Under the pieces are notes generated by a model. The model saw only the letters and a list, made by a program, of their open reading frames with translations, did no database searches and was not told where the DNA came from. Positions 43,225 through 61,307 of a DNA stretch of 64,000 bases are shown one piece after another. Source of the DNA: Jaminaea rosea. Lineage: Eukaryota; Basidiomycota; Exobasidiomycetes; Microstromatales. Position numbers and translations under genes: made by a program. The number at the start of each line of letters is the position of its first letter. The first letter of the stretch is position 1. Where the stretch lies: assembly GCF_003144245.1 (NCBI RefSeq), contig NW_020289975.1, positions 1,817,496 through 1,881,495 of the forward strand, written 5' to 3'.

Positions 43225-44079
43225 CTAGACTGCCTCGTAAATTAATGTCACTTTGTGGTCCTGCTGCCATTCGGCCTCTCTGGCTTGTTGAACCTTGAAT
43301 GTCTCGCGCGGTCTTGACGGCGGCGCAGTCGGTTGTTTTCCCTCCTCGGCCTCATCACTTGCACTCTCGCTTTCTGCTTCGATTGCCGTCATCTTCTCGT
43401 GTAAGCGCGCAACGAAGGCCTGCTTCTGGTCCATGCTCCCTGCCTTCATCCCCTTTCTCGTCACGATGACAATCTCCACCTGACCCTTCTTGCCGCGCTT
43501 GTGAAAGTGCCTGCTAGCCGTCTTCACCTTGTGCTCGAGGTCATTCTCCGTCACCAACCACGTCAGCTGCAAATTCATCTTCTTGTTGCGCTCCTGCGAC
43601 GTCTTTGAGCGCACGCGATTTTTGAGGTCTTTGGCCTTTTCGTAAGCTGCCTTTTTGTTAATGATCTTGCAGATGGGATAGCGACCTTCGCCGCCCTCTG
43701 CTACCTGAACGACGAAGGACTCCTTGCGATCGATGTCTCGGAGGAGCTTGCGAAGGTCAACTGGTTTCTCGGACAGGCCGCCCTCTGGCAGGACGAGGCT
43801 GATCATCCGCGAAGGGATGTCCTCGTCGCGGAGGTCGGCGGCATGATTGGACCGTGAGGATGAGAAGTGGCGGTGAGCGACTGCGAGGGGCGGGCAATGG
43901 GCAATGGAGCCGCGAAGCCGTGCGCAGCCCTGCGCCGGTAGCCGTGAAGTGGAAGCAATCGTTGAAGAGGGAGCCGACGATGCTGTCGCCCCGTTGAGGG
44001 CCCATGGAGCGGTGGGCCGTGCTGCCAAGACGGCTGCCCTCATGGTCGTTGCTGCTACGGCTACGGCGTTGGTTGACAT
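43225..44079 (-). CDS. Mitochondrial translation initiation factor IF-3 (Aim23-like)
   Basis: Single exon. From ATG 44079 it codes 284 residues with an Ala/Arg/Ser-rich presequence (MRAAVLAARPTAPWALNG). The frame also stays open upstream to 44574 (449 residues), but that extension is Arg-rich and featureless. The IF-3 N- and C-domains are marked by PICKIINKKAAYEKAKDLKN, LQLTWLVTENDLEHKVKTA, FHKRGKKGQVEIVIVTRKG. A charged C-terminal tail ends KVTLIYEAV. Binds the mitochondrial small ribosomal subunit. Confidence 0.88.
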   Translation of the reverse strand: MSTNAVAVAATTMRAAVLAARPTAPWALNGATASSAPSSTIASTSRLPAQGCARLRGSIAHCPPLAVAHRHFSSSRSNHAADLRDEDIPSRMISLVLPEGGLSEKPVDLRKLLRDIDRKESFVVQVAEGGEGRYPICKIINKKAAYEKAKDLKNRVRSKTSQERNKKMNLQLTWLVTENDLEHKVKTASRHFHKRGKKGQVEIVIVTRKGMKAGSMDQKQAFVARLHEKMTAIEAESESASDEAEEGKQPTAPPSRPRETFKVQQAREAEWQQDHKVTLIYEAV

Positions 44080-44608
44080 CGTGGTGCGTCTTCGTCGTCG
44101 TCGTGGAGGAGATTGCGACGGAAAGAGAGCAATCCACCTCGTCCAGTCTCGTGGTCGTGTCGTGTCGGCTTGGCTTGGCTTTCGGGCCGAGCTGACGATC
44201 AGGAAAAGAGCCAGAGCAAAACGGACCCACGGCACTGACGGCAGCGTCGTCTTCCTCCCCGTCCGACGGGACTCGGTGAAGTCTAACTTCGCGCAGGAAG
44301 CGCCGCCCTCCTGCCGTGCGTCCTTGAGTGGGGCCATCGGAGTCGTGCAGCAGCCTTCCCCCCTCGCAGCGCTGGATCTGCCTGCCTCCACCGCTACCAA
44401 TCCACGTCTCTCCGCCCTGTTGCGAGAATGCCGATCGAAGAAGTGAGGGCGGAGACGGCGTACGATGGGTCTTGTGAGCGAAAAAGATGTGCTGCAGAGC
44501 CAAGCAAGCGGCCCGAAGTGAAAGGTATAATACAAAGCAGCATGATCGCCCACATCTTTCTTTCTTCTCCCCATCTAGTATTTATCCAAAAGACTCTCAC
44601 CACCCACG
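44080..44608. promoter_or_regulatory. Divergent region between IF-3 and aldo-keto reductase
   Basis: About 530 bases. The part to 44574 is open in the IF-3 frame but does not look coding beyond that. The rest is the promoter of the aldo-keto reductase with TATAAT near 44525. Confidence 0.4.
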
Positions 44609-45680
44609 ATGTCTCTCCCCACTCACTTTACTCTCAACAACGGCAAGAAGATCCCTTCAGTCGGCCTCGGTACGTGGCAGTCGCCACCTGGCCAGGTTCG
44701 CGATGCTGTTGAGGCTGCCATCCGCGCTGGCTACCGTCACATCGACTGTGCCTGGGGCTACCGTGAGTGACTGCACCGGCAAAATGGCTTGGTGTGTAGC
44801 GCTGACTGACCCCGTCCCCTCTCGCCTCGCCTCGCCTCGCCTCGCCTCGCCTGGCACAGAAAACGAACACGAGGTCGGAGAGGGCATCAAGGCCTCGGGC
44901 GTCCCTCGCGAGGAGATCTTTGTGACCTCGAAGCTCTTTGAATTCCACCACAACCCCGAGCACGTTCGCAAGGCCATCAACCACTCGCTCTCGCGCTTCG
45001 GTCTCGAGTACCTCGACCTCTACCTGATGCACTGGCCCGTAGCTCTCGAGCCCGAGGTCAAGGGTGACGACTTGCCCCTTGCGCCCAAGAAGAAGGCCAA
45101 CGGTAAGCCTCAGGTCAACAAGGACCTCTCGGACAATGTCCTCCCCACCTGGCGCGAGATGGAGAAGCTCGTCGACGAGGGTCTCGTCAAGTCCATTGGT
45201 ATCAGCAACTTCAACATCCGCCGCACTCGTGCTCTCCTCAAGGAGTGCCGCATCAAGCCCGTCACCGACCAGGTCGAGCTTTCCTTCACCTGCCCGCAGC
45301 CCGACCTCATCGCCTGGCTCAAGAAGAACGACATTGTGCCCCAGGCCTACTCGCCCTTGGGCTCCACGGGCGCCTCGCACGCCTCGCTCAAGGAGATCGA
45401 CACCCTCGCCAAGAAGCACGGTGTCGAGGGCGCCAACATCCTCATCTCGTGGCAGGTCGCGCGTGGCTGCAATCCGCTGCCCAAGTCGGTCACCGCCTCC
45501 CGCATTGCCAACAATGCCAAGCTGGTCAACCTCACCAAGGAGGAGGTCGACGAGCTGGAGAAGGCCGCCCTCTCACAGCAAAAGAAGCGCGTCTGCGACC
45601 AGTCCGACGACTTTGACTATGACATCTTCGAGGAGAACCATCCGGAGAACAACGACGCCGCTCAGGCCAAGCTCGGTTGA
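44609..45680 (+). CDS. Aldo-keto reductase
   Basis: NADPH-dependent carbonyl reductase, TIM barrel. Exons 44609-44762 and 44860-45680; 324 residues, the family length. The catalytic tetrad is present: D46 and Y51 ([13 protein letters not shown] across the junction), K76 (FVTSKLFEF) and H109 (YLMHWPV). [29 protein letters not shown] and [18 protein letters not shown] are the cofactor-side motifs. It resembles fungal aldehyde/glycerol-type reductases; substrate is open. Codon use is strongly biased to C-ending codons, suggesting high expression. Confidence 0.94.
44819..44850 (+). repeat. (CTCGC)n tandem repeat inside the aldo-keto reductase intron
   Basis: About six tandem CTCGC units just before the CACAG acceptor. 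They take the place of a polypyrimidine tract. Confidence 0.8.
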
Positions 45681-45898: not shown

Positions 45899-46244
45899 CT
45901 ACGTGACGATGCACTTGGCTGGCGCAGCTGCGGTCAAGAGCAGGGGTTGTCAGCGATCATGCATGTGCGTGATTTGACCCTAACTCACGAGGCTTGAGAC
46001 ACCCTGAACCCCCAGCCGTGCATCCGGTGCTGCAGTCAGAAGACTGGCATACCTGCTTGACCGGTACGTACGCCTTGAACGAGACGCATGGACCTCCGGT
46101 GCCATGAGCTCCGGCCGCCGGGTTTCCCGTCACTAGATGGCAAGAGGTACAGTCGGTGTTGGGGCAGCAGGCACCTAGACCTGCTCCATGAGCGCCCGTG
46201 GCGATGAGAGCCGCGGACATGCAGAGCGCAGAGTTGAAGTGCAT
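45899..46244 (-). CDS. Small secreted cysteine-rich protein (module family, copy A)
   Basis: Exons 46244-45989 and 45927-45899, 94 residues. A signal peptide (FNSALCMSAALIATGAHGA) is followed by GACCPNTDCTSC, PCVSFKAYVPVKQVC, SSDCSTGC and GCLKP, then a phase-1 intron and the tail exon giving PAPAKCIVT. The cysteine order and the GxCVSxK phrase match the other five modules of this family in the window. The spliced tail was found by comparison with copies B and C: read-through would end in an unrelated HAHA tail. No enzyme motif is seen; small size, secretion and disulfides suggest an effector or cell-surface role. Confidence 0.82.
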
Positions 46245-46777
46245 GGTGCGTCGAGAGGTCACTGCTTGCGCGAGGTGATGGACATGGAGAAGGAGGGCGC
46301 CTTTGGTGAGGTCAAGTACTCACATCGCTCACAGCTGCTCAAATAACGGCTCATAAGTGGGAAGAAGCCCACGCCGACTGTAATTGCGTACTGAACGACG
46401 GCAGGTATGGCGTCGATCGATACCACTGCTCTCGACCCATCTCGCGTCCCCGACGGCTCGCAAGCATCATCTGCTCAGTCGCCGATGCTTCGCACGCCGT
46501 CTTTAGGGAACACGGAGAAGCAGCAGCGGGCGTACGCATGCGCGCGAAAGTAGATGGAGAGCAACGGCTTGGCATTTTGGTGGGCACGTTATAGGTTCGA
46601 GATAGACAAATCGAGGAAGTGAGGAGCTGATCGTGCAGAATATCGAGCAGCACAAGAGGGGGACAGGACCAGGCGGATGGCATCGAGGAAGGATGTGTTC
46701 GACCGCAAGTGGCAACATCTTGCCCACCGATCACCGTACTGCTCTCTCTCTCGCGCGTCAGTGCTTGCCTCTGACGC
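46245..46777. other. Spacer between cysteine-rich copies A and B
   Basis: About 530 bases, including the promoter of copy A. A long minus-strand open frame (46351-46845) passes through it, but the sequence looks non-coding (no motif, biased shadow of GC-rich DNA). Confidence 0.35.
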
Positions 46778-47089
46778 CTAGTTGACAACGCACCTGACTG
46801 ATGAGCATGCAGCCCTTGAAGAACCCTCCAGCAAGAACTTACCATCGGAGAGACAGGTCCCCGCTATGACGGTCAAGCACTGCTGACAGTTGTACTCAGC
46901 GCAAATTTTCTTGGGAAGCTGGACTGGCTTGTACGAAACGCAGACGCCGACTGGATTGGCACCCGTCGAGGCTCCATTGACTGGCGTGCACTTGGAACAC
47001 TCGCCATCACTGCAGCATCCGCCTATGATCGACCCCCAGGAAAGCGGAGCGAAGAGGACGAGGAGCGCAAAGGTGCGAGCAAGCTTCAT
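46778..47089 (-). CDS. Small secreted cysteine-rich protein (module family, copy B)
   Basis: Signal peptide MKLARTFALLVLFAPLSWGS, then GGCCSDGECSKC, GVCVSYKPVQLPKKIC, YNCQQC and GTCLSD, ending RCVVN. Two readings are possible: a 103-residue protein with no intron, or removal of a 45-base GTAAGT-to-CAG stretch (46842-46798) in phase 1, giving 88 residues and joining CLSD to VRCVVN. Because 45 is divisible by three and the stretch holds no stop, both forms keep the same tail. The intron position matches the intron in all other copies, so I favour splicing. Confidence 0.82.
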   Translation of the reverse strand: MKLARTFALLVLFAPLSWGSIIGGCCSDGECSKCTPVNGASTGANPVGVCVSYKPVQLPKKICAEYNCQQCLTVIAGTCLSDGKFLLEGSSRAACSSVRCVVN

Positions 47090-47134
47090 ATTAGAGCGAA
47101 TCGGCGAGTGCGGGCGTATTTCGCGGCTGTGCTG

Positions 47135-47188
47135 TGGGGTGTGTGGAAATGTAAGGAAGAGTGGGGTGTGTGGAGATGTAAGGAAGAG
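47135..47188. repeat. 27-bp tandem duplication upstream of copy B
   Basis: Two adjacent units differing at one base (TGGGGTGTGTGGAAATGTAA... and TGGGGTGTGTGGAGATGTAA...). It lies 46-99 bases upstream of the ATG of the minus-strand copy B, in its promoter or leader. Confidence 0.8.
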
Positions 47189-47828
47189 AGAAGCGACGTG
47201 CCCGCTACTTTTGTACCCTGAAGAGAGACTCGAGACAATCCATCGCGCCGTACGCCCTCAGCCCTGCTGAGCTCACCAATTCACGGCTCTTCTTGGACGG
47301 GCGCAAGGTGGTTCCGGTCGCCAACTACCAAGGGTGATGTCGAGGCAGCGCTTGTTCTCACGCCAAGGGCAGACGGCAGCGGCACAAGTGAGCAGTAGAG
47401 TTCAAGGTCACAGGGATCGCTTGACGGTGATGCTTCGCAGGCGAGTCGGGAAATCGACGGTAGCAAGGGATTTGGAAGCTGAAGGTGACAAATGGTACAA
47501 AAGGTAGTGTTGGAGCGGCTGCGCAGCGATTTTCAAGATGAGAGTGGGAGCAGCACAAGTCATGTCTTCGTGACGGAAAGGGATCAGACGTAGCAGACAA
47601 CATGCAAAGGAGCCGCAGCTTTGTCAAGAGTCAAGTATTTCAGAAGACGCCGGATGTTTGCAGGCGTGGGAATAGCGGGGCTGAAGGACAGGAGAAGCGA
47701 TCGAGGACGTTTCAAGTCACTTTGTGACGGTGAGTGCTCTACAAAGGGGATGAGAGTAATCCGCATGTCTCGATGCTCGCCTGTCGTGCTTGACGCTCCT
47801 GCCGATACCTTGCCTCTGCCTCTTGCGC

Positions 47829-48196
47829 CTAGTTGACGACGCATCGAATGGGAGTAGAGTCTACGCGGACAAGGTGCATGATGGTAGTGAGTATTTAATC
47901 GAGTCGTCCTTTTTATGGCGAACCTTACTGGGCAATCCCAGGCAGCCACCCCCGACGACGGTGGAGCACCGCTGGCAAGTATCGTCGCTGCGCGCTTTGC
48001 GGGCAGGTACTATAGTCTTGTAGTACGCGCAGCTACCCACACGGTTGTTGCCTGAGGAGGAGCCGCCAACACCGGTGCACTGTATGCACGAAGCATCCCG
48101 GCAGCATGCGCCGATGAGAACTCCAAGCACAGGACCATTCATGGGGAGGGAGAGGGTTACGAACGCGACGGCCGTGAAAGTACGAATGAGTTGCAT
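47829..48196 (-). CDS. Small secreted cysteine-rich protein (module family, copy C)
   Basis: Exons 48196-47929 and 47860-47829, 99 residues. Signal peptide region LIRTFTAVAFVTLSLPMNG, then IGACCRDASCIQC, SSGNNRVGSCAYYKTIVP, DTCQRC, GGCLGLP, a phase-1 GTAAGG intron, and the tail NSTPIRCVVN. The tail and its stop codon context (TGCGT[C/T]GTCAACTAGGCG) are nearly the same in DNA in copies B and C, which points to a recent common origin. One of the expected mid-module cysteines is replaced (KARSDDTC). Confidence 0.82.
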
Positions 48197-49918
48197 GGTG
48201 ACGTGGTTCGGGAGGTTCCTGAGAGGTTCTCGAGAGGTGCTGATTCTGGTTCTTGAGAAGTCCCAAACTCTTTATGCAGCGATAGCTTGTCGGGGTATGT
48301 GAGGAGGGAAGGAGAGAGAGATAAGCTTTCCTTATACCTCGAGCCCGCGTACCTTGGAAGTACGAGCAGGTACTCAGCAATGTTCCACTCAGTTGCCGCA
48401 CCTCCTAACCCGGAGGTCCATGCCCGTGCCTGCGTGCACATTTCTGGCCGAGGAGGTGACCCTCGACAAGAAGTCATACCGGAAGGATCCAGAACAGTAC
48501 CCTGGGAACCGCAATTGCTCTCCCACACTGCATCGGTCCACTCAGTTGCCGCAGCTTCAGTCTCGCGACCTCTGTATCCGAAGCTTGTAAGTACAATCCG
48601 GCCGACAAAGTGAGGGAAAGGAGACACAGATAGCGGTCGCCACGATCGAGCAGGCGCCATACGAGAAATGCCAGCTTTACGGCTCGCTTCGGAGAGTCTG
48701 CTCGCTGACATGAATGATTCCGACCAGCTGCGTTTGCTGGCAGCCATCGCAGCGATGGCGCAGCTGTGCGAAGAGTGATCCTCATCTAGCCGCCAACCTC
48801 GCTAAATAAGATGAGCGCTTGCGATCGCCCAGCCTTCTGACCCACTCACGGACACACCCAGCACGCCTGTGAGACGTCTCACCGTGGGAGCATCTTGGCG
48901 GGGCTTGCGGGCACAAGAGTTGTTCCGAGCAAAGTGAGTGTGCTGGTGTCGACGGCAGGACCCTATCAAGCAAAGATCTGCCAAGTCTCCTAATGCCTGA
49001 GCCTGTGTTGCTGCGACAATGGAGCATTGCATGTCTTGAGGGCGAGGGAAGGACTCATGAGCCGAGGGCGTGGGCCACTTGGAGCTTCGCGCCGCGCCGA
49101 CTCTGTCCACCTGCACCCGGTTTTAGCGCACCTCCTTGAAGGTGACCCACTTGATCCTCTTTGACCGTCAGTCTCGTTCTTTGTGGGGCCCACCAGGTGG
49201 CAGAGCGATTTGTTTAGCGGCACTCACTGGCAGTGCGCGAGTTCTCAATGGGCCCTATTGCTGCAGCAATGAGGCTGCTATACTTTTGAGGGCAACAGGA
49301 GAGGAGTTGCCGAGCACAGAGCGGGAGAAGGTGGAATGCAGAATTGGTGAAGGCTTCGATTGCTGACCACTCCACTCACTCAGCACCCCACCTCCCATCT
49401 CCCTTCCTTACTTGCTTTTCACTTCGTCGTCAAGAGCCGCCGCTCCTGCGTTCATCTATCGGCGATCACAAGCTGCTCAGAGACATCCTTCCTGGCCTTC
49501 TCTCATTTGCTGCCACAAAGATTCTCGTACGTCGATCGTCATCGCACTTGACCCGTTACTTCGCACTGGGAAAGTGCAAGGTGAGGATTAGCGGCCCGCT
49601 TTCAAGACTGAGCTGCTGACTGACAGTATATCCCTTTCGCTTCCCTCCGCTATCAGGCACAGGCTTCGCCGAAATGGCGTAGATTGGCTCGCCTCGGGGG
49701 CATCAAATCACAAAACCGCCTCTCGTTGCCTTCGCTCCGCCTTCGAACTCCGTCACCGGCGGCTCCTCCTCGTCAACTTGCGTCTCAAGATCGAAGCCGA
49801 TGGGCCCAGACAAGGAACATGAAAATATGTCGGCTCAAGGCGACGAGGGGAAGAGGGATGGGATACAATGAATGAATTTTCGAGGGAGTGCGACGCAGTA
49901 GCGGAGGAGCGGGCAAGC
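48197..49918. other. Gene-poor stretch
   Basis: About 1.7 kb with only short, featureless open frames. One 17-base direct repeat, TCCACTCAGTTGCCGCA, occurs at 48384-48400 and 48537-48553. No transposon ends, RNA genes or recognisable gene fragments were seen. Confidence 0.4.
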
Positions 49919-50015
49919 TCACTTGCCTTTCTTGCCCTCGGCGGCAAGGTAGGAGAGACTGAGCTTCTTCAACTCCTCAGGGATGTCCCGCGGGGCATCC
50001 GCCGTATTGTCGCTC

Positions 50016-50623
50016 TTAGGCCCCTTTGGCCCCGTCTTCTCTGTTCCTCGGATATGACGAGGACGTCAGCCTATCTGCGGGGCTGAGGAAGACGGGGATG
50101 GGGCCGAGCGAGTCGCTAGGGTGCAGGTGGCGCCCATCGAGGAAGAAGGCCTCTTCTTGCTGCTCACCGCCGTCCATGCGCCCGCCTTGGCTTGCTGCTG
50201 CTGCTACTGCCGTTGCCGTTGCTGCGCCGCCCATCAGCTTCTGCTGCGGGCTCAGCGCAGGCTCTTGCTGATGCTGTTGCTGCTGAGGCTGCTCCTATGA
50301 CTGCTGCTGATGCTGCTGCTGCTGATGCTGAGGAGGCTGCTGATGAGAGGCGGCTGCTGAGCAGCGGCAGAGGAGGGGATGACGGGCGCCGTGATGGTGG
50401 GCTCAGGCTGTGCGACGGCTCCCGCGTAGTTCTCCGGATCTATGTAGCGCCTTGCGACGTCCGGACGAGCAGGAATCTTGCAGCCATACACCTCCTCCCA
50501 GCTGGACTCGAGCCCGCCGCGGATCGAGGCCAAGCGCTGCGTCTCGGCGCGGGACCTCGACAGAGCAACGCCGGCGTCCCAAAGCTCCTTAGCCGCGGCG
50601 TCCCTGCTTTTGCGAGGGGGCAT
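50016..50623 (-). CDS. Putative Gln-rich protein of unknown function
   Basis: Tentative exons 50623-50384 and 50288-50016, 170 residues. The first exon reads MPPRKSRDAAAKELWDAGV and WEEVYGCKIPARPDVARRYI, which looks like real protein. The second is Gln/Ala-rich then EEAFFLDGRHLHPSDSLGPIP. The joining intron runs through a CAG/CTG repeat, so its ends are uncertain. A further piece (AKSD-less frame, 50000-49919, DIPEELKKLSLSYLAAEGKK) also looks coding and may be the true C-terminus through one more intron. I know no family. Confidence 0.4.
50190..50345. repeat. CTG/CAG-rich low-complexity tract
   Basis: Imperfect GCTGCTG runs on the plus strand, coding Gln, Ala or Ser runs on the minus strand within the putative Gln-rich gene. 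Prone to length change. Confidence 0.65.
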
Positions 50624-50855
50624 TGTGGACAGGTGAAGGTCGATCTGGTCATGTCCACAATGCGGTGACTCGGGTCATGGTTTCGACCCAGCCGGGTGCC
50701 ATGGGCATACTGGTCTTGATTCTCTTCTGGCGAACCTCCAACGCTGCCTAGAGCGATGATTCCGGGTACATCCTGTAGACCCGCCGTCTCCAGGCCGTGG
50801 ACTTCAATGCGTTCCTTGTCGCGGATGTACTGTACTTGATTTGGTGTTCAGCTGC

Positions 50856-53653
50856 TTAGATGGTGTCGTGACTGACGTCTAGCAATTGAAACTGTCTGAG
50901 GCGTCGCAGAAAGACCGCATCCTCGTCCCGAGTCGCCATCTGAAGGTTGACGAGTGTCGAGCGTCGTTGACCAGCCAAGATGCCTTTCACGCCCCAGGCT
51001 TGAACGCTGGCATTGACTGAGCTTGGCGGACCCCCCATCGACTCGTCAGAGACACGACAGCCGCTCGCTGGGTCGAAGAAGAATGGCACGCCGTGCCATG
51101 TATGTGCCAGCAATGTCGGCGCGAGCTCGGGGCTCGTCTCCTCACTCAGGTCGAGCAGAGCGCCAGAGAGGGCATCTCGACGGCCGTAGATGTGCTCGTG
51201 CACGATCCAAGTCTTGATGACCCTCTTCCAGTCGTCAGCTCTGGTCTGTACGCCACCTTAACGGCCTCCGCAGCGCCAGACGAGCACCCCAAGATCGTCG
51301 ATGATGACGTCGTCGCATTCCTCAAGCGACCGAATGTAGGCGCGGTAGCCGATCTCGGACAGCTGCTGCACCGATGCCGACTGCTCGAAGAACGCTGTTG
51401 GCATCTTGTCGTCATTGACGAGGCAGGGCTCTTTGGCTGGACCCAAGGTGGAGATTAGCGGCGCCTTGAAGCCTGCAAATTCGCGGGCGACCCTCTTCTC
51501 GTCCTTTCGCGACATGTTCTTGATGTAATTCAACTCGACGTCCATCGCATCGCTGAACGGTGTCTTGCCGCCAAGAGCGCTCGCTTGCAGGGCCTTGACC
51601 TTCAACGGGCGGCGAGTGCTGTAGGACCAAGACGATTGCTGATCGACGGCTGTGGCGAGTGCTGGCCGCATGACGTCAGGAGGGGGCTGAGGCTGGCGTT
51701 GATCTGCTTCGGGTCCAGATCCGGCTCTGCGTCGACAAGCGCGGTGGCGGCAGCGGCGATCAGGCACTCATCTTTCGTCAGCTCGGCAGTCGCTCCCGAT
51801 CGGTACTTCTTGTCGGCCTCCTTGACGCCGTAATCAGCGACGAGAGGCGATCTGTGAGAGGACGAGTCGTCGCATCGTCGAGGGCGTGAAGGGACATTTG
51901 GACCTTGATGGCGATGGTCACGAAGCCGAGTCCAGAGGCCTTTGACATCTGCAGCCAGTTTGGGAGCCGCCTGCATGCATCGAAGAGATGACCGATGGGC
52001 TTGCCAGTCCTGAGGTCGTACTGTTGCCAAAGGTCGATCGATGCCTTGAAGATGCTGCGACTAGCCAGTGCTTCAACGCCGAAGGGTACCGTGCGAGGCG
52101 TAGGCGACGACTGTTGAAGGTCGAGGTGTTCGCCCAGCGGGCAGACTTCGCACAGCATTGCCGTCTGCTCAGCTGAAGTCGCATTCGAGCGCAGAATGGT
52201 CTCGATGGTCTCGTAGTCCCACTCGCCTGGAAGGACGGCGCGGTACATGGACGACTTGAGCTCTCCAAGGCGCTCCATGACCTTGATCGCTTCGCCCTTT
52301 GTCATGCGAGCTGTGTCGTATGCCGCCATTTTCTCCGCGCTCCTCATTCGCCAAGTGCTGCTGATCGAGCTCTTGAAGGACTGCAGGCGAACCCATACGA
52401 CGTGAGCTGCGCAGTGCTTGCCGAACATGTCGGCGCACTGGATGAGCTTGTCTCGCAGATGGACGTGTTGCGAATTGGGAAAGTGGCAAGTGTGAGAGCC
52501 TGCGATGGTCAGGTAAGCGGCGTCAGCTCGGGCTGGGAAGCTCACTCCGCGACTGCTCTGCTCACCTTCCGTGCACCCTTCGATACATGGCATTATCTCT
52601 CGACGCTTCGCCTCGGCATTCAGTTGACGGCCACCGCCAAGCGCGGCAACGCCCAACTCCTCGCATTCTGCGTCGATGACCTGAGGGGAGAGGCAGCAGG
52701 CGTGAGCGTACGTTCGTCTCGTTGACCGCGGCTCGGCTGGCAACGCACATCCCAACGCCAACGCTCGTAGATTGCCTCGGCGGTCTCTCTGAGGGCGGCG
52801 AATGGGCGGACCTGTAGGCAGCGTCAATGCGTCAATGTGGAGAAGAGAAGCGCCCAAAGGTGTGGATGAAGACGGCACTCACAAAGGCGTCTCGAATTGC
52901 GCGAACCATTTCATCGCCAAAGCGCTGGACGTCTCCCGCTTCTCTGGCTTCGTTCAGTCCAAACATGACAGCCTTGTTGTTGAAGGCGGGACAGACGAGT
53001 AAGTCGCCGCTCTTTGCGATTGGTCGGACCCAGAATCGGACGACTGGAGCCCCTCGATCGTCCGCGAGCCTACCGAGCTTCCTCCGGATGGCGGCGTGTG
53101 AGAGTCCCATCTTCGCCAGATCAAGGGCGTAACGGAAGAAGGCAACTACGTCGGTGTTGAGGATGCGCGCTGCGAGCTCACTGTTGCTCTTGTGAACAGT
53201 CTTCACGCCGCAGCTTATGCCCGCCGAGCTTTTGTTGTGCTCGGTGCCATTCGCAAAACGTACTTTGCTGCTGGTGGGCGGAATCTGGCTGAGCGTCGCA
53301 GTTGCGAGCGAGAAAGAGATGGCTGGAAGATTTGCCTTCTCTCTGTCTTGCTCGACAAACTTGAACAGGACGAGGCTCGCGTCGCGCTTCATCTCTTTTG
53401 CGAGCTCGAGCTGTTCTGCAGGAATGCCATTCCGGTCGAACGGTTGGACGTCATTCCAGAAGGTCGGCGTGTTGCCATGCACGAAGTTGAACATAATTCG
53501 TACGTCGTCGAGATGCTGCATTACGGCGTACTCGCTCTTGGCATCCGGGCACTTGGGCGCAGGCGGTCTCTTGGAGAAGTCGCTGTGCTGGCTGTTCCGC
53601 GTACCGCACCGCGCAAGCCAAGTCGCCGTGACGCTTCGCTCTACAATCAACAA
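50856..53653 (-). CDS. Unrecognised multi-exon gene, 3' part unresolved
   Basis: Four blocks splice in phase: about 53653-52883, 52811-52749, 52680-52566 and 52499 to about 51860, with GTGAGT, GTGCGT and GTGAGC donors. They give a roughly 480-residue helical protein with phrases such as NTDVVAFFRYALDLAKMGL, RFWVRPIAKSGDLLVCPAF, HLRDKLIQCADMFGKH and LFDACRRLPNWLQMSKASG. Coding-like sequence continues to 50856 (PFSDAMDVELNYIKNMSRKD, HTWHGVPFFFDPASG), but I could not follow a single frame through it, so the gene may have more introns or be decayed. No signal peptide, zinc motif, nuclease or polymerase motif is apparent. It sits inside the cysteine-rich island. Confidence 0.4.
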
Positions 53654-53759
53654 GGAGAGAGGCGAGTCAGCGTATAGCTCATCGCTCTACCTGCCCCTCC
53701 CTACACGTACCTTACGCTGAGCACCCCCGTCGTTTGCTGGCCTGGTTTATGGCTGACAA

Positions 53760-55171
53760 TTCCAAGTGCTTTCCTTGAAGCGGTCGAGGAGAGGGACGGC
53801 TTTGGCCTGGCGAGATGGAGAGGCACGGTGCTGTAGCTTGGAGGAGCTTTTGCTCAGACCCATAGGGCATCCTTGCGTGCGGGCTTGTGATGGCTCGTAT
53901 GGCGGGCGTGCGTTGAGTTTTAGCTTTTCTTGCCACGCCACTTGCTGAGCCTGGGGGCGGGCAAAGGGTCTGTGAGCACGATGAGTGCCATCAAGAGCCG
54001 CCTTCGACTGCTCACCTTTGCCTTCTGTATAATCTCAGAAGTATTCAGGGGAAGCAGAACGTCGTGCTCGCCCCTCAGTGGTATACATAGAACTCAGCGT
54101 AGCCCATAGGTATGAGTGTCCGGCAGCCGTGACATGATGACGCTAGGCGTGTATACACTTCCTCGCGGCCATCACCAAGGTCTGGGTGGACAGAAGAAGA
54201 TGCCGAGCGTAACACTGACCGCTGCGCGCCGGCTGCATCGTCGCCGCATAGCTGGTCTCGTCTTGTCCTGAGTGTATGGGCGCTTCTTGACGGTGACTGA
54301 GCACGCTGAGCATGCTGGGCCATCCGTTCACGCCAAGCCTGCTGCCAGGCTCCGCCAGTCACACATCCCTCGAGGGTAAGTGAAGCTGATGAAGCTATGG
54401 TGCCGGCAAGTTTGGATTACGATGAGTGGTGATGAGGTCGCGGTGATGGTGCGGAAGAGATTGCTCGTGCACGGCGTGATTGTTTTGGAGGCGGGACGGG
54501 AGCCCGGGTCGACTCGGTCCGTCGCGAAGGCAACCAGCAAGAACAAAGCACGAAGCGACCCCTCGACGATCGCGAGCCAATTCGGGTGGCCCCTGCGCCG
54601 CGCCTCGTTTGTCGCTCACGCGGCGTGTTGGGATCCCCTTCCTTCCTGCGCACTCGCACAAGCCTCGCTCCCTTTGCTCCGCAATATCTCGATGCTGAAC
54701 GGCATACCGCGGCCCAGCCGATGGCAGCGACACCGCCTAGCCATTTTGAGAGTTTGCGAGTAGCCGCCCGAGCTGATGGAGGGTGATGATCCGGCTGTGC
54801 GGGCCCGTAGTGCGGCAATAGCGAGCCCAACCCCGTGCCCGCGGTTTGCAAGTGGCAATGGTAGGCTGACCTTGCGCAGTCACTTCTCGAGGCGCGAGCG
54901 ATCTGTCGCACCACTCAATGTAGGGCAAGACCCACACTACTTGCTTGCCTCGGGCCATGCTAGCAACCGGCCGCCATGATCACCCGATGCTCGAGGTGGT
55001 GCTCAGGAATGCGCCCGCTGCCAGGCTAGCGGCGTACTTGAACCCTCAAGGACCTGCTCTACACACTCTATTCTAGCTTTTCCGTCGCGTTTGTCCCCCA
55101 CTGCCCCCTTCCTCGCCCCACAAACACAACAAAGATTCCTGACCAGATATCAAATCCGACCTTTCAACACC
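53760..55171. other. Gene-poor stretch upstream of the three-module gene
   Basis: About 1.4 kb with short open frames only. The last 150 bases are CT/CA-rich and contain TATTCTAGC about 95 bases before the ATG, as expected of a promoter and leader. Confidence 0.4.
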
Positions 55172-56897
55172 ATGCGTGCTGCTGCCCCCTTCACCACTAT
55201 GCTAGCCTTCCTCGCGGTTGGCTCCTACCTACCTCTATTCGTCGCATGCAATGACTTGCAGAAGCCCGACATTGTCCAACATCGCAACACCGACACTCAC
55301 GGCGCTCATTCTCGAGCGGTCAAGGTCGAGATCGGCCGTTGCCATAGTAAGCCTGGCTGCACCAATTACGCCAAGGGCGTCGCAGGCATCACCTCAGGCA
55401 ACAATGACGTAGGCTCCTGCGTCAGCTACTCGACTGATTACGGAGGTATCAAAGTGTGCGCTCAGAAGGGATGCTCTCAAGGGTGCAAAACCGTCAATTT
55501 CAAGGCTGAAGACTGCCTCAGCTTGCGTAAGTCCTGGTCGCGTACAGCTGTGGGGGCAAGGCTGACCGTGGCCTCCATCTGCACTCTACAGCGGGCACCG
55601 ACACGGTGCAATGCGTTGTGCTTGGCAGCGGCTCGATCAATGTCGATGAGAAGATCGACCTGATCGGTCGCCAGTCCCCTCAAGTCGGTGTCCACCATGA
55701 TCAAGCTAAGAAACGTACCTTCGCGTCAGGCGCAACGCTCGACACCACCATCGACGCCCGTGTTTCTCGTTTTGCGCACGCCGTCATGACACCCAAGGTA
55801 CGCACAGCTCAGCTCGGCCGTGAGCAGGCCGAGGTCCGCGCTTCACAAGTCAAGATGGGATCCTGCTGGCAGGATTACCGTTGCGACGGCAACGGCACCG
55901 CTAGCAACGGCACGGACCTTTCGGGCGCGGCAAGCGGCAACAATGATATTGGCTACTGCGTCGGCTTCAAAGCTGGTTTCGCGGGCAAACGACTGTGCAC
56001 AAACTCAGGATGTACCGGTACTTGCGTCGATCGCAAGTTCAACGCGGGAGATTGTGTACATTTCTGTGAGCACGAGGGGGCGTCAGGGAAAGTGTAGTAC
56101 TGACCAGACTTGCGCTACAGCATCGGGCGCGGGTATCGGTTGCGTCGTCCTGGGAAGCTCGAGCTCTCGACGATCTCAAGACGACCTCGAAGGGAAGGTC
56201 GAAACGGGGCGCAGTGTCCAGACTCCCGAACCGCAGCAGAGGGCTGCCGGCGAGGGAAGTAAACGAGCCTTTCCCGTAGCCGCACGCACAATTGAAGGTC
56301 TTGGACCCCCAGACAACAACGGCGGCGATGCTGCACCTCATCAAAACCACTCTCTAGTTCAGGATGTTACGTTAGGAGAATGTCACGAGTCGTACCACTG
56401 CAACGGTAACCACTCGTCCGTCACGGGTCCGCCCAACGGGGGCAAGAATGTAGGACCTTGCAAGAGCTTCGCACCAGCCATTGTAGGTCAGGAGTGGTGT
56501 GATACCGCAGGTTGTACTGGAAAGTGCACATTTGGCAATTTCAGTCGTGGTAATTGCCTTGGCTTCGGTGAGGAGACGTGAGCTGGTGTACATCCTCATG
56601 AAGGACGCGCTAACCGCCTTCCGTCGCGTCGCGCCTTCGCCTGCAGACAACCTAGCCAGTGTCGCTTGCGTCGTCTTCGGTCGCCCCGGCTCTCCACTCA
56701 TCCGTCGCACTATCGACCTCAGTGGAGCTCTCGAGGCCAGAGACAGCGATCAGACCGCTACCACCGAGCTAAAGGAGGGTAGAGCTATCCGTGACGCCGA
56801 CGCTGGGCCCGTCACGAGCGGCGCGGCTCTTTCCGAACAGCGGAGCCTCAGCCACGACACTGCCGAGTCCACCCAAGACTCCCTCAAGCTCGAGTAG
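55172..56897 (+). CDS. Secreted protein with three tandem cysteine-rich modules
   Basis: Exons 55172-55526, 55592-56065, 56121-56567, 56647-56897; 508 residues. A signal peptide (TTMLAFLAVGSYLPLFVA) precedes three copies of the module also found singly in copies A-C. Each copy has G-x-C, a Cys about 5 later, SGNN-D-V/I-G-x-C, two or three further Cys pairs, D/N-C-L/V, a phase-1 intron, then CVV. Module cores: IGRCHSKPGC to DCLSL; MGSCWQDYRC to DCVHF; LGECHESYHC to NCLGF. Linkers of about 60-80 residues hold dibasic sites (AKKR, SSRR, SKRA) and N-glycosylation sites occur in modules 2 and 3. No enzyme motif. Likely a tandem-duplicated, perhaps Kex2-processed, secreted protein. Confidence 0.85.
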
Positions 56898-59568: not shown

Positions 59569-61307
59569 ATGGCCGGACACGCACGCTTGACCACCTTTCC
59601 ATCGCTCCTTACTCGTACCACGCAGCCCTCGTTGCTTTCGTCTTCGTCTCACCTCGTATCTCGAGGGCGCCTCGTCATGGCCACTGCTTCTTCTTCCTCT
59701 TCGGCCTCCGGCTCACGGAATCAGTCCTCTTACCAAAAGGTCTTGCAAACCAACACCATCAATCCCCATGTCCTCAACGTCGAGTACGCCGTGCGCGGCG
59801 CTCTGTCCAACAAGGTGAGTACGCACGAACTACTCGACAAGCAGTGCCGCATCTGACGACTGCCTCATCTCTCTCCCCCATTGCGCCCCCACAGGCCGAT
59901 GAATTCGCCGATATCCTCGCCCACGGCAAGGCCAAGGAGCAGGGCCTCCCCTTTGACTCGATCATCTCGGCGAACATCGGCAACCCGCAGCAACAGCCCT
60001 TCCTCGCTCAGAAGCCTCTCACCTTTTGGCGCCAGGTGGCTGCTCTCACTGAGCTCCCTTCGCTTATGCAAGACGAGGTGGTGCGCTCTCACTTCCCTCG
60101 CGATGCAGTAGAGCGAGCTCAGCAGATCCTCGACGATGTAGGCTCAGTCGGGGCGTACTCACATTCCAAGGGCGCCGCAATCGTGCGCAAGCATATCAAG
60201 GAGTACATTGAGGAGCGCGATGGCGGCCACCACTCAGACGCCGAGCACATCTACCTCACGGCGGGTGCCTCGGGAGGCGTAGGGCAGGTCATGTCCGTCC
60301 TCATCTCTGGACCCAAAGACGGCGTAATGATCCCGATCCCGCAGTACCCACTCTACTCTGCCACTTTATCGCTCTACGACGCCACACCCGTTCCGTACCA
60401 CCTCGACGCAGAAAAGGACTGGGCGGTAGATGTCGAAGGCATGGCTCGCGCAGTAGACGAGGCTCGCAGCAATGGGACAGACGTACGATCGTGCGTCATC
60501 ATCAATCCTGGTAACCCAACTGGTTCCACCTTGACACTTGAGAATATCCAAGGCATCATTCGCCTCGCTCACGAGAAGCGACTCGTCCTCCTCGCGGACG
60601 AAGTCTACCAGGCCAACATCTTCCAACCAAAGGAACGTCCCTTCCATTCGTTCAAAAAGGTCCTCAAGGACTTCTCCAAGAGCTCTGATCCCGCCGAGCG
60701 CGCCATTGCCGACGACGTCGAGCTGGTCAGCTTTCACTCCATCTCCAAGGGCGTGAGCGGCGAGTGCGGCAGGCGCGGCGGCTACTTCGAGCTGTGCAAC
60801 ATTGACCCGGATGTGGAGGCGCAAATCTACAAGATGGCCAGCGTCAACCTTTGCGCCTCACTGCAGGGACAAGTCGGCGTGGACCTCCTCGTGAAGCCGC
60901 CAAAGGAAGGCGACGAGTCCTACCCACTGTACCGCGACGAGGTGCAGGCGATTTACGACACGCTCAAGTCGCGCTCGGAGAAGATGCGAGATGCCTTTGC
61001 CAATCTGCCCGGCGTCAGCTGTGGTGAGGCTCAGGGGGCGCTCTACCTCTTTCCGGAGGTGTCTGACCTGCCGCAAAAGGCGCTCAAGGACGCGGAGAAG
61101 AAAGGGCAGAAGATCGATCTCTGGTACTGCTTCCAGCTCCTCGAGGCGACGGGCATCTGCTGTGTCCCTGGTTCTGGGTTTGGCAAGCAGCCCAACGACA
61201 AGACTGGATCGTTCTGGTTCAGGACGACGATCTTGGCAAAGGAAACGGATGAGTTTGTGGAGAGGTTCGGACGCTTCCACCGAGAGTTGCTGGACAAGTG
61301 GGCGTAA
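59569..61307 (+). CDS. ALT1: Alanine aminotransferase
   Basis: PLP enzyme exchanging the amino group between alanine and 2-oxoglutarate. Exons 59569-59814 and 59895-61307; 552 residues. The N-terminal 45 residues (MAGHARLTTFPSLLTRTT) are Arg/Ser/Leu-rich with no acid, a mitochondrial presequence; MATASSSS at about residue 37 could start a cytosolic form. NTINPHVLNVEYAVRGALS, NIGNPQQQPF, AGASGGVGQVMSVLI, INPGNPTGSTL and SFHSISKGVSGECGRRGGY are signatures; the PLP lysine is about K367. FWFRTTILAKE near the end carries the substrate Arg. Confidence 0.95.

Follow-up and report, generated by a model that had tools for sequence, protein, structure and literature searches.

The window, a 64,000-nucleotide stretch of fungal DNA (contig C1:1817496-1881495 of a 16.6-Mb genome in 21 contigs), carries four genes, A to D, that encode six copies of a cysteine-rich module: three single copies and one triple copy. 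Sequence comparisons indicate that these modules belong to a real, diverged multigene family of at least about thirty genes that is locally clustered and whose proteins probably have an extracellular role, directed at microbes or a host. The four window genes are part of a much larger genome-wide family that is not visible from the window alone. An earlier note, made from the letters of the window, had placed the six modules here and regarded them as a family, and this is borne out: the cysteines align, and genome searches recover the copies at scores exceeding chance. The gene models, in nucleotides (nt) and amino acids (aa), are as follows.

Gene A, 45899..46244, minus strand: predicted 94-aa secreted protein with one 10-Cys module, model from DNA; exon 1 46244-45989, intron 45988-45928, exon 2 45927-45899.
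Gene B, 46778..47089, minus strand: predicted 88-aa secreted protein with one 10-Cys module, model from DNA; exon 1 47089-46843, 45-nt in-frame intron 46842-46798, exon 2 46797-46778.
Gene C, 47829..48196, minus strand: predicted 99-aa secreted protein with one 9-Cys module that lacks core cysteine C6; exon 1 48196-47929, intron 47928-47861, exon 2 47860-47829.
Gene D, 55172..56897, plus strand: predicted secreted protein of 508 aa that carries three 8-Cys modules; four exons, 55172-55526, 55592-56065, 56121-56567 and 56647-56897.
Module D1, part before the intron, 55328..55525, plus strand.
Module D2, part before the intron, 55852..56064, plus strand.
Module D3, part before the intron, 56369..56566, plus strand.
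Exon 2 of D, 55592..56065, plus strand: 474 nt, symmetric phase 1-1; D1 tail, linker with one KR, and D2 body.
Exon 3 of D, 56121..56567, plus strand: 447 nt, symmetric phase 1-1; D2 tail, linker with RR and KR, and D3 body.

Searches of the genome with single modules link the window copies to one another and to others. Module C recovers B at E 5.8e-13, module D1 recovers D2 (1.1e-6) and D3 (3.0e-4), and further copies appear elsewhere on contig C1 and on contigs C4, C8, and C14. A profile built from the six modules, as the earlier note had suggested for a search of fungal proteomes, recovers 10 of the 11 other copies with E-values between 5.3e-15 and 8.4e-6, whereas the eleventh (L017) reaches no better than 0.89, the DNA searched in this case being the regions already matched by the single-module searches. 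When iterated, the profile yields 30 module exons in the DNA around the matches, a count that stays constant over five rounds, with the best non-member at E 0.12; because it was trained on its own matches, these E-values are not independent. The 30 exons, one of which (L065:2175-2363) is absent from every single-module search, correspond to 28 genes if every module outside D is counted as a separate gene.

Five more copies, on contigs C3 (two), C6, C8, and C19, bring the total to 35 module exons and 33 genes on seven contigs, including a partial copy on C19 (L074) and a doubtful one at C3:1368770 (L073; E 0.0055, odd spacing, longest tree branch). Additional matches, known from the search table only, lie on contigs C12 (E 1.2e-7), C16 (4.8e-5), C2 (2.5e-4), C13 (0.04), and C20 (0.05) and at C1:1938612 (0.04), and all genome-wide copy counts are lower bounds. 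The match at C16:95051-95182 has one internal stop codon, which suggests, from its sequence, gene death within the family. The copies at C14:10-17 kb and C6:5 kb lie 5-17 kb from contig ends and are perhaps subtelomeric.

The family is diverged and also clustered, as the earlier note had held for the window copies. Twenty-two other modules share 18-43% identity with D1, and labels in the 28-row tree group by genomic place, with 12 changes compared to a mean of 19.2 after shuffling (0 of 200 shuffles as low). Nine rows with intronless tails (L014g, L064b, L065a-c, L071-L073, and L075) split from the other nineteen at a support of 94/96, which is under the starred level, and two further intronless rows, L016 and L014d, fall among the nineteen. 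D1-D3 do not form one clade in this tree, with which a single origin remains compatible. For all six paralogue pairs compared by NG86, nonsynonymous divergence (dN, 0.27-0.78) is lower than synonymous divergence (dS, 1.2-3.1), the latter being near or beyond saturation.

The module spans about 66-80 residues and has eight core cysteines (C1, C3, and C5-C10), with extra cysteines in some copies. The spacing C5-x12-C6-x4-C7 is present in 25 of 29 rows, and the module of gene C, which is without C6, may be a diverging copy. Cysteine C1 is out of place in the module exon of five modules (L067 and L063b-e) in the group at contig C14:130-138 kb. Cysteines C2 and C4 were scored in 23 modules, a set that leaves out L067, L063b-e, and L074 (whose first cysteines could not be placed or fall beyond the sequence used) and also L017, which carries both. 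Both are found in 6 modules and neither in 16, with C2 alone in one (L014d; Fisher p 7e-5, uncorrected for kinship). This joint presence or absence fits an optional C2-C4 disulfide, and we propose that the cysteines pair into four disulfides, or five where C2 and C4 are present.

The C-V/I-V tail that the earlier note saw at the end of the modules is present in all six, but it is joined to the module body only after removal of an intron of 45-79 nt, the Cys-hydrophobic tail lying in the following exon. After splicing, the tails read CIVT (A), CVVN (B and C), CVVL (D1 and D2), and CVVF (D3). Tails were spliced in the chosen model for 17 of 30 modules, while 7 are intronless through the last Cys and 6 have no assignable tail. 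Where several donors and acceptors were available, the choice was guided by the tail motif and took no account of phase; the intron ahead of the last Cys is phase-1 in all 17 modules given a spliced tail. Its distance past the C9 codon is 10 nt in eight modules, 13 nt in C, 22 nt in two, and 34 nt in six. Because both middle exons of D are flanked by phase-1 introns, an extra exon copy can be inserted there with the frame kept. The 45-nt intron of gene B (46842-46798) is stop-free and in frame, and a transcript that kept it would encode a longer protein with an eleventh cysteine.

Secretion was judged by hydropathy alone, using 13 N-termini from genes whose module shares an open frame with an ATG ahead of it (A-D and nine others; a few further genes of this kind were not entered). 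All 13 are above the mean of 237 control frames, and the share of controls that equal or exceed a given N-terminus ranges from 0.008 to 0.089. For ten this share is no more than 4%, and the remaining three are D (5.5%), L014d (6.3%), and L065c (8.9%). The signal peptides claimed earlier for all six modules are recognizable as signal-peptide-like N-termini on A-D, although D2 and D3 have none themselves and share that of D. For 11 of the 30 modules there is no ATG ahead of the module in its own frame, so an upstream exon would be required.

The view that the arrangement fits neither hydrophobins nor CFEM proteins is upheld by searches in which no Pfam family reaches its cut-off for the modules and neither a hydrophobin nor a CFEM model appears among the matches. 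Hydrophobins have eight cysteines with CC at Cys 2-3 and 6-7; the module spacings differ from these, and they likewise do not fit the CFEM cysteine pattern. Below cut-off, D1 alone matches DUF3586 (PF12131; E 7e-4, 20.3 bits, cut-off 25), and the 23 modules searched include two that match SLR1-BP (PF07333; best E 0.0022), one that matches CPL1-like (PF21671; E 1.4), and one, D1, that matches Crystall_2 (PF09076; 12.8 bits, E 0.11, cut-off 25 bits). Defensin-like, DUF5766, Ig_Shg, N36, and EGF_BRNP1-3 models each match one of the 23 below cut-off. Sequence searches of PDB gave chance-level matches only (best E 0.97; none; 0.35; 0.97 and 1.8), including the match at 0.35, a 30-position alignment with a scorpion toxin.

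A protein database searched with B, its intron unspliced, returned nothing at E 1 or better (one candidate passed the filter). The 17-module profile also returned nothing at E 1 or better, with only 19 candidates past the word filter, such that distant kin could be missed. Using the neighbouring alanine aminotransferase as a control, the database proved rich in Ustilaginomycotina (smut-group) proteins, which makes the empty family searches informative as far as the word filter allows. However, the modules are much less conserved than the aminotransferase, and the control is thus no proof that module kin would be detected. A literature search whose coverage mostly excluded subscription papers and preprints found no description of the module family, and passages from PMC13211469 and PMC10942635 contain nothing on it. 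Judging from these sequence and literature searches, the family is seemingly undescribed, and it is possibly restricted to this fungal lineage.

It is improbable, in our estimation, that the modules belong to a described family overlooked by these searches, such as the Mig1/Mig2-type smut proteins or CPL1-like proteins. The Mig2 genes of Ustilago maydis form a cluster of secreted Cys-rich proteins and offer a lead in this direction, as do the CPL1-like, DUF3586, and SLR1-BP scores. These scores stay below the Pfam cut-offs, and the empty 17-module profile search argues the same way, subject to the limit on distant kin given above.

The fold prediction proposed in the earlier note was made with AlphaFold2 for D1, using the six window modules as alignment. 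The resulting model has six strands, a mean predicted local distance difference test score (pLDDT) of 86, and a predicted template modelling score (pTM) of 0.68, and it is a model without the last exon. It has no helix of four residues; the KP4/KP6 alpha/beta sandwich folds are not among its fold matches, which does not in itself exclude them. Two PDB chains matched the D1 model, of which MiAMP1 (1c01), a plant antimicrobial protein, is the only one aligned along the model (residues 1-66, weak score). A viral fold library gave six matches (best E 6.0), and a model of B had no match in the PDB fold library. Compared by hhalign, the two halves of the module profile match over 16 columns (E 0.0024, probability 12%), and none of 100 column shuffles did as well. 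The same profile compared to the MiAMP1 sequence gave a probability of 0.4%, with 17 of 100 shuffles as good.

We propose that the module is a compact all-beta domain that combines two similar halves into a double Greek key, the eight-stranded fold of beta-gamma-crystallin, MiAMP1, and the beta-gamma-crystallin-like killer toxin WmKT. MiAMP1 and WmKT are, like the modules as predicted, small disulfide-rich beta domains. However, MiAMP1 has 6 cysteines compared to 8-10 in most modules and no sequence support for kinship, and WmKT is not among the fold-search matches of the module model.

The reading that we favor, and to which we give about an even chance, is that of a diverged family of small secreted proteins, held by four (or five) disulfides in a double-Greek-key-like beta fold, that acts extracellularly, in the case of D possibly after release by a Kex2-type protease. 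Such a protease may cut the linkers of D after KR or RR to give three free modules, although enrichment of KR/RR was not significant. Outside the cell, the cysteines would keep the scaffold while the loops diverge against changing targets. Since the fungus is possibly a leaf-surface yeast, we lean slightly toward antagonism against competing microbes on plant surfaces over a role toward a plant host. The full version of this proposal, in which a new disulfide-locked double-Greek-key family of at least about thirty genes serves as a secreted interference arsenal that includes a precursor giving three modules via a Kex2-type protease, is rather unlikely to be correct in every part.

Large secreted Cys-rich families are usually taken as signs of plant pathogenicity, and the modules could instead be plant-host effectors, freed into leaf tissue, that suppress or modify plant defence and have expanded in an arms race. 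We regard this as possible, though clearly less probable than the broader extracellular reading. The proteins have the effector hallmarks of being small, secreted (by hydropathy), and cysteine-rich, and they resemble orphan candidate effectors and other small secreted Cys-rich fungal proteins in size, clustering, and divergence; unlike these, one protein here bears its module three times on symmetric exons. PMC9816061 describes expanded disulfide-held groups in fungal secretomes that have a common fold and little shared sequence, with effector groups that enlarge by tandem subcluster expansion while their disulfides are conserved. PMC10462633 places the beta-gamma-crystallin/WmKT double Greek key among orphan candidate effector folds in >80% of 20 fungi. 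However, structure-related groups of this type need not be confined to plant pathogens (PMC9816061). The nearest named kin of the fungus also speak against a role in the plant: the aminotransferase shares 77% identity with its Parajaminaea phylloscopi counterpart, 68% with that of Sympodiomycopsis kandeliae, and 99% with an assembled protein (among the best 120 of 7994 matches). Parajaminaea belongs to Microstromatales, as does Sympodiomycopsis by a title cited in PMC7766764, and the fungus is therefore placed in or near that order. PMC7766764 calls one member of the order, Jaminaea rosea, a phylloplane fungus.

A further alternative is that the modules are cell-surface or matrix proteins that bind the fungus's own wall or each other, for adhesion or protection. 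In one copy (L075:655-1299, at C8:435787 within C8:435100-436400), the module forms the C-terminal end of an open frame of 851 aa, preceded by repetitive Pro/Lys/Ser-rich stretches, and this frame resembles a stalked wall protein. The weak contig C13 match also lies within an 870-aa frame. A stalk is absent from all four window genes, and the other complete members are short proteins, leaving this reading with little likelihood.

The favored extracellular family is ordinary in kind; what is unusual is its exon-made triple protein and its size for a small genome. Rust fungi have proteins with two fused killer-toxin-like domains, likewise copies of a small secreted domain in an expanded group, but these belong to the Ecp2 (PF14856) cluster according to PMC9816061, and no module here matched PF14856. 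If the fungus is a surface-dwelling yeast, the same kind of expansion would serve competition or self-use. The intron phase, the optional cysteine pair, and the exon-made triple protein make these genes well suited to research on the growth of families of this type.

The flanks of the module genes (43225-45680 and 59802-61304) hold conserved genes for an IF3-like protein, an aldo/keto reductase, and the aminotransferase; the IF3-like protein scores 25.0 bits, below its Pfam cut-off of 26.9. Between genes C and D, minus-strand frames of 366, 273, 169, and 123 aa without a Pfam match occupy window positions 50252-53653. These long frames, which are perhaps a multi-exon orphan gene, make the gene-poor character that had been ascribed to this island of about 11 kb uncertain at 50.2-53.7 kb.
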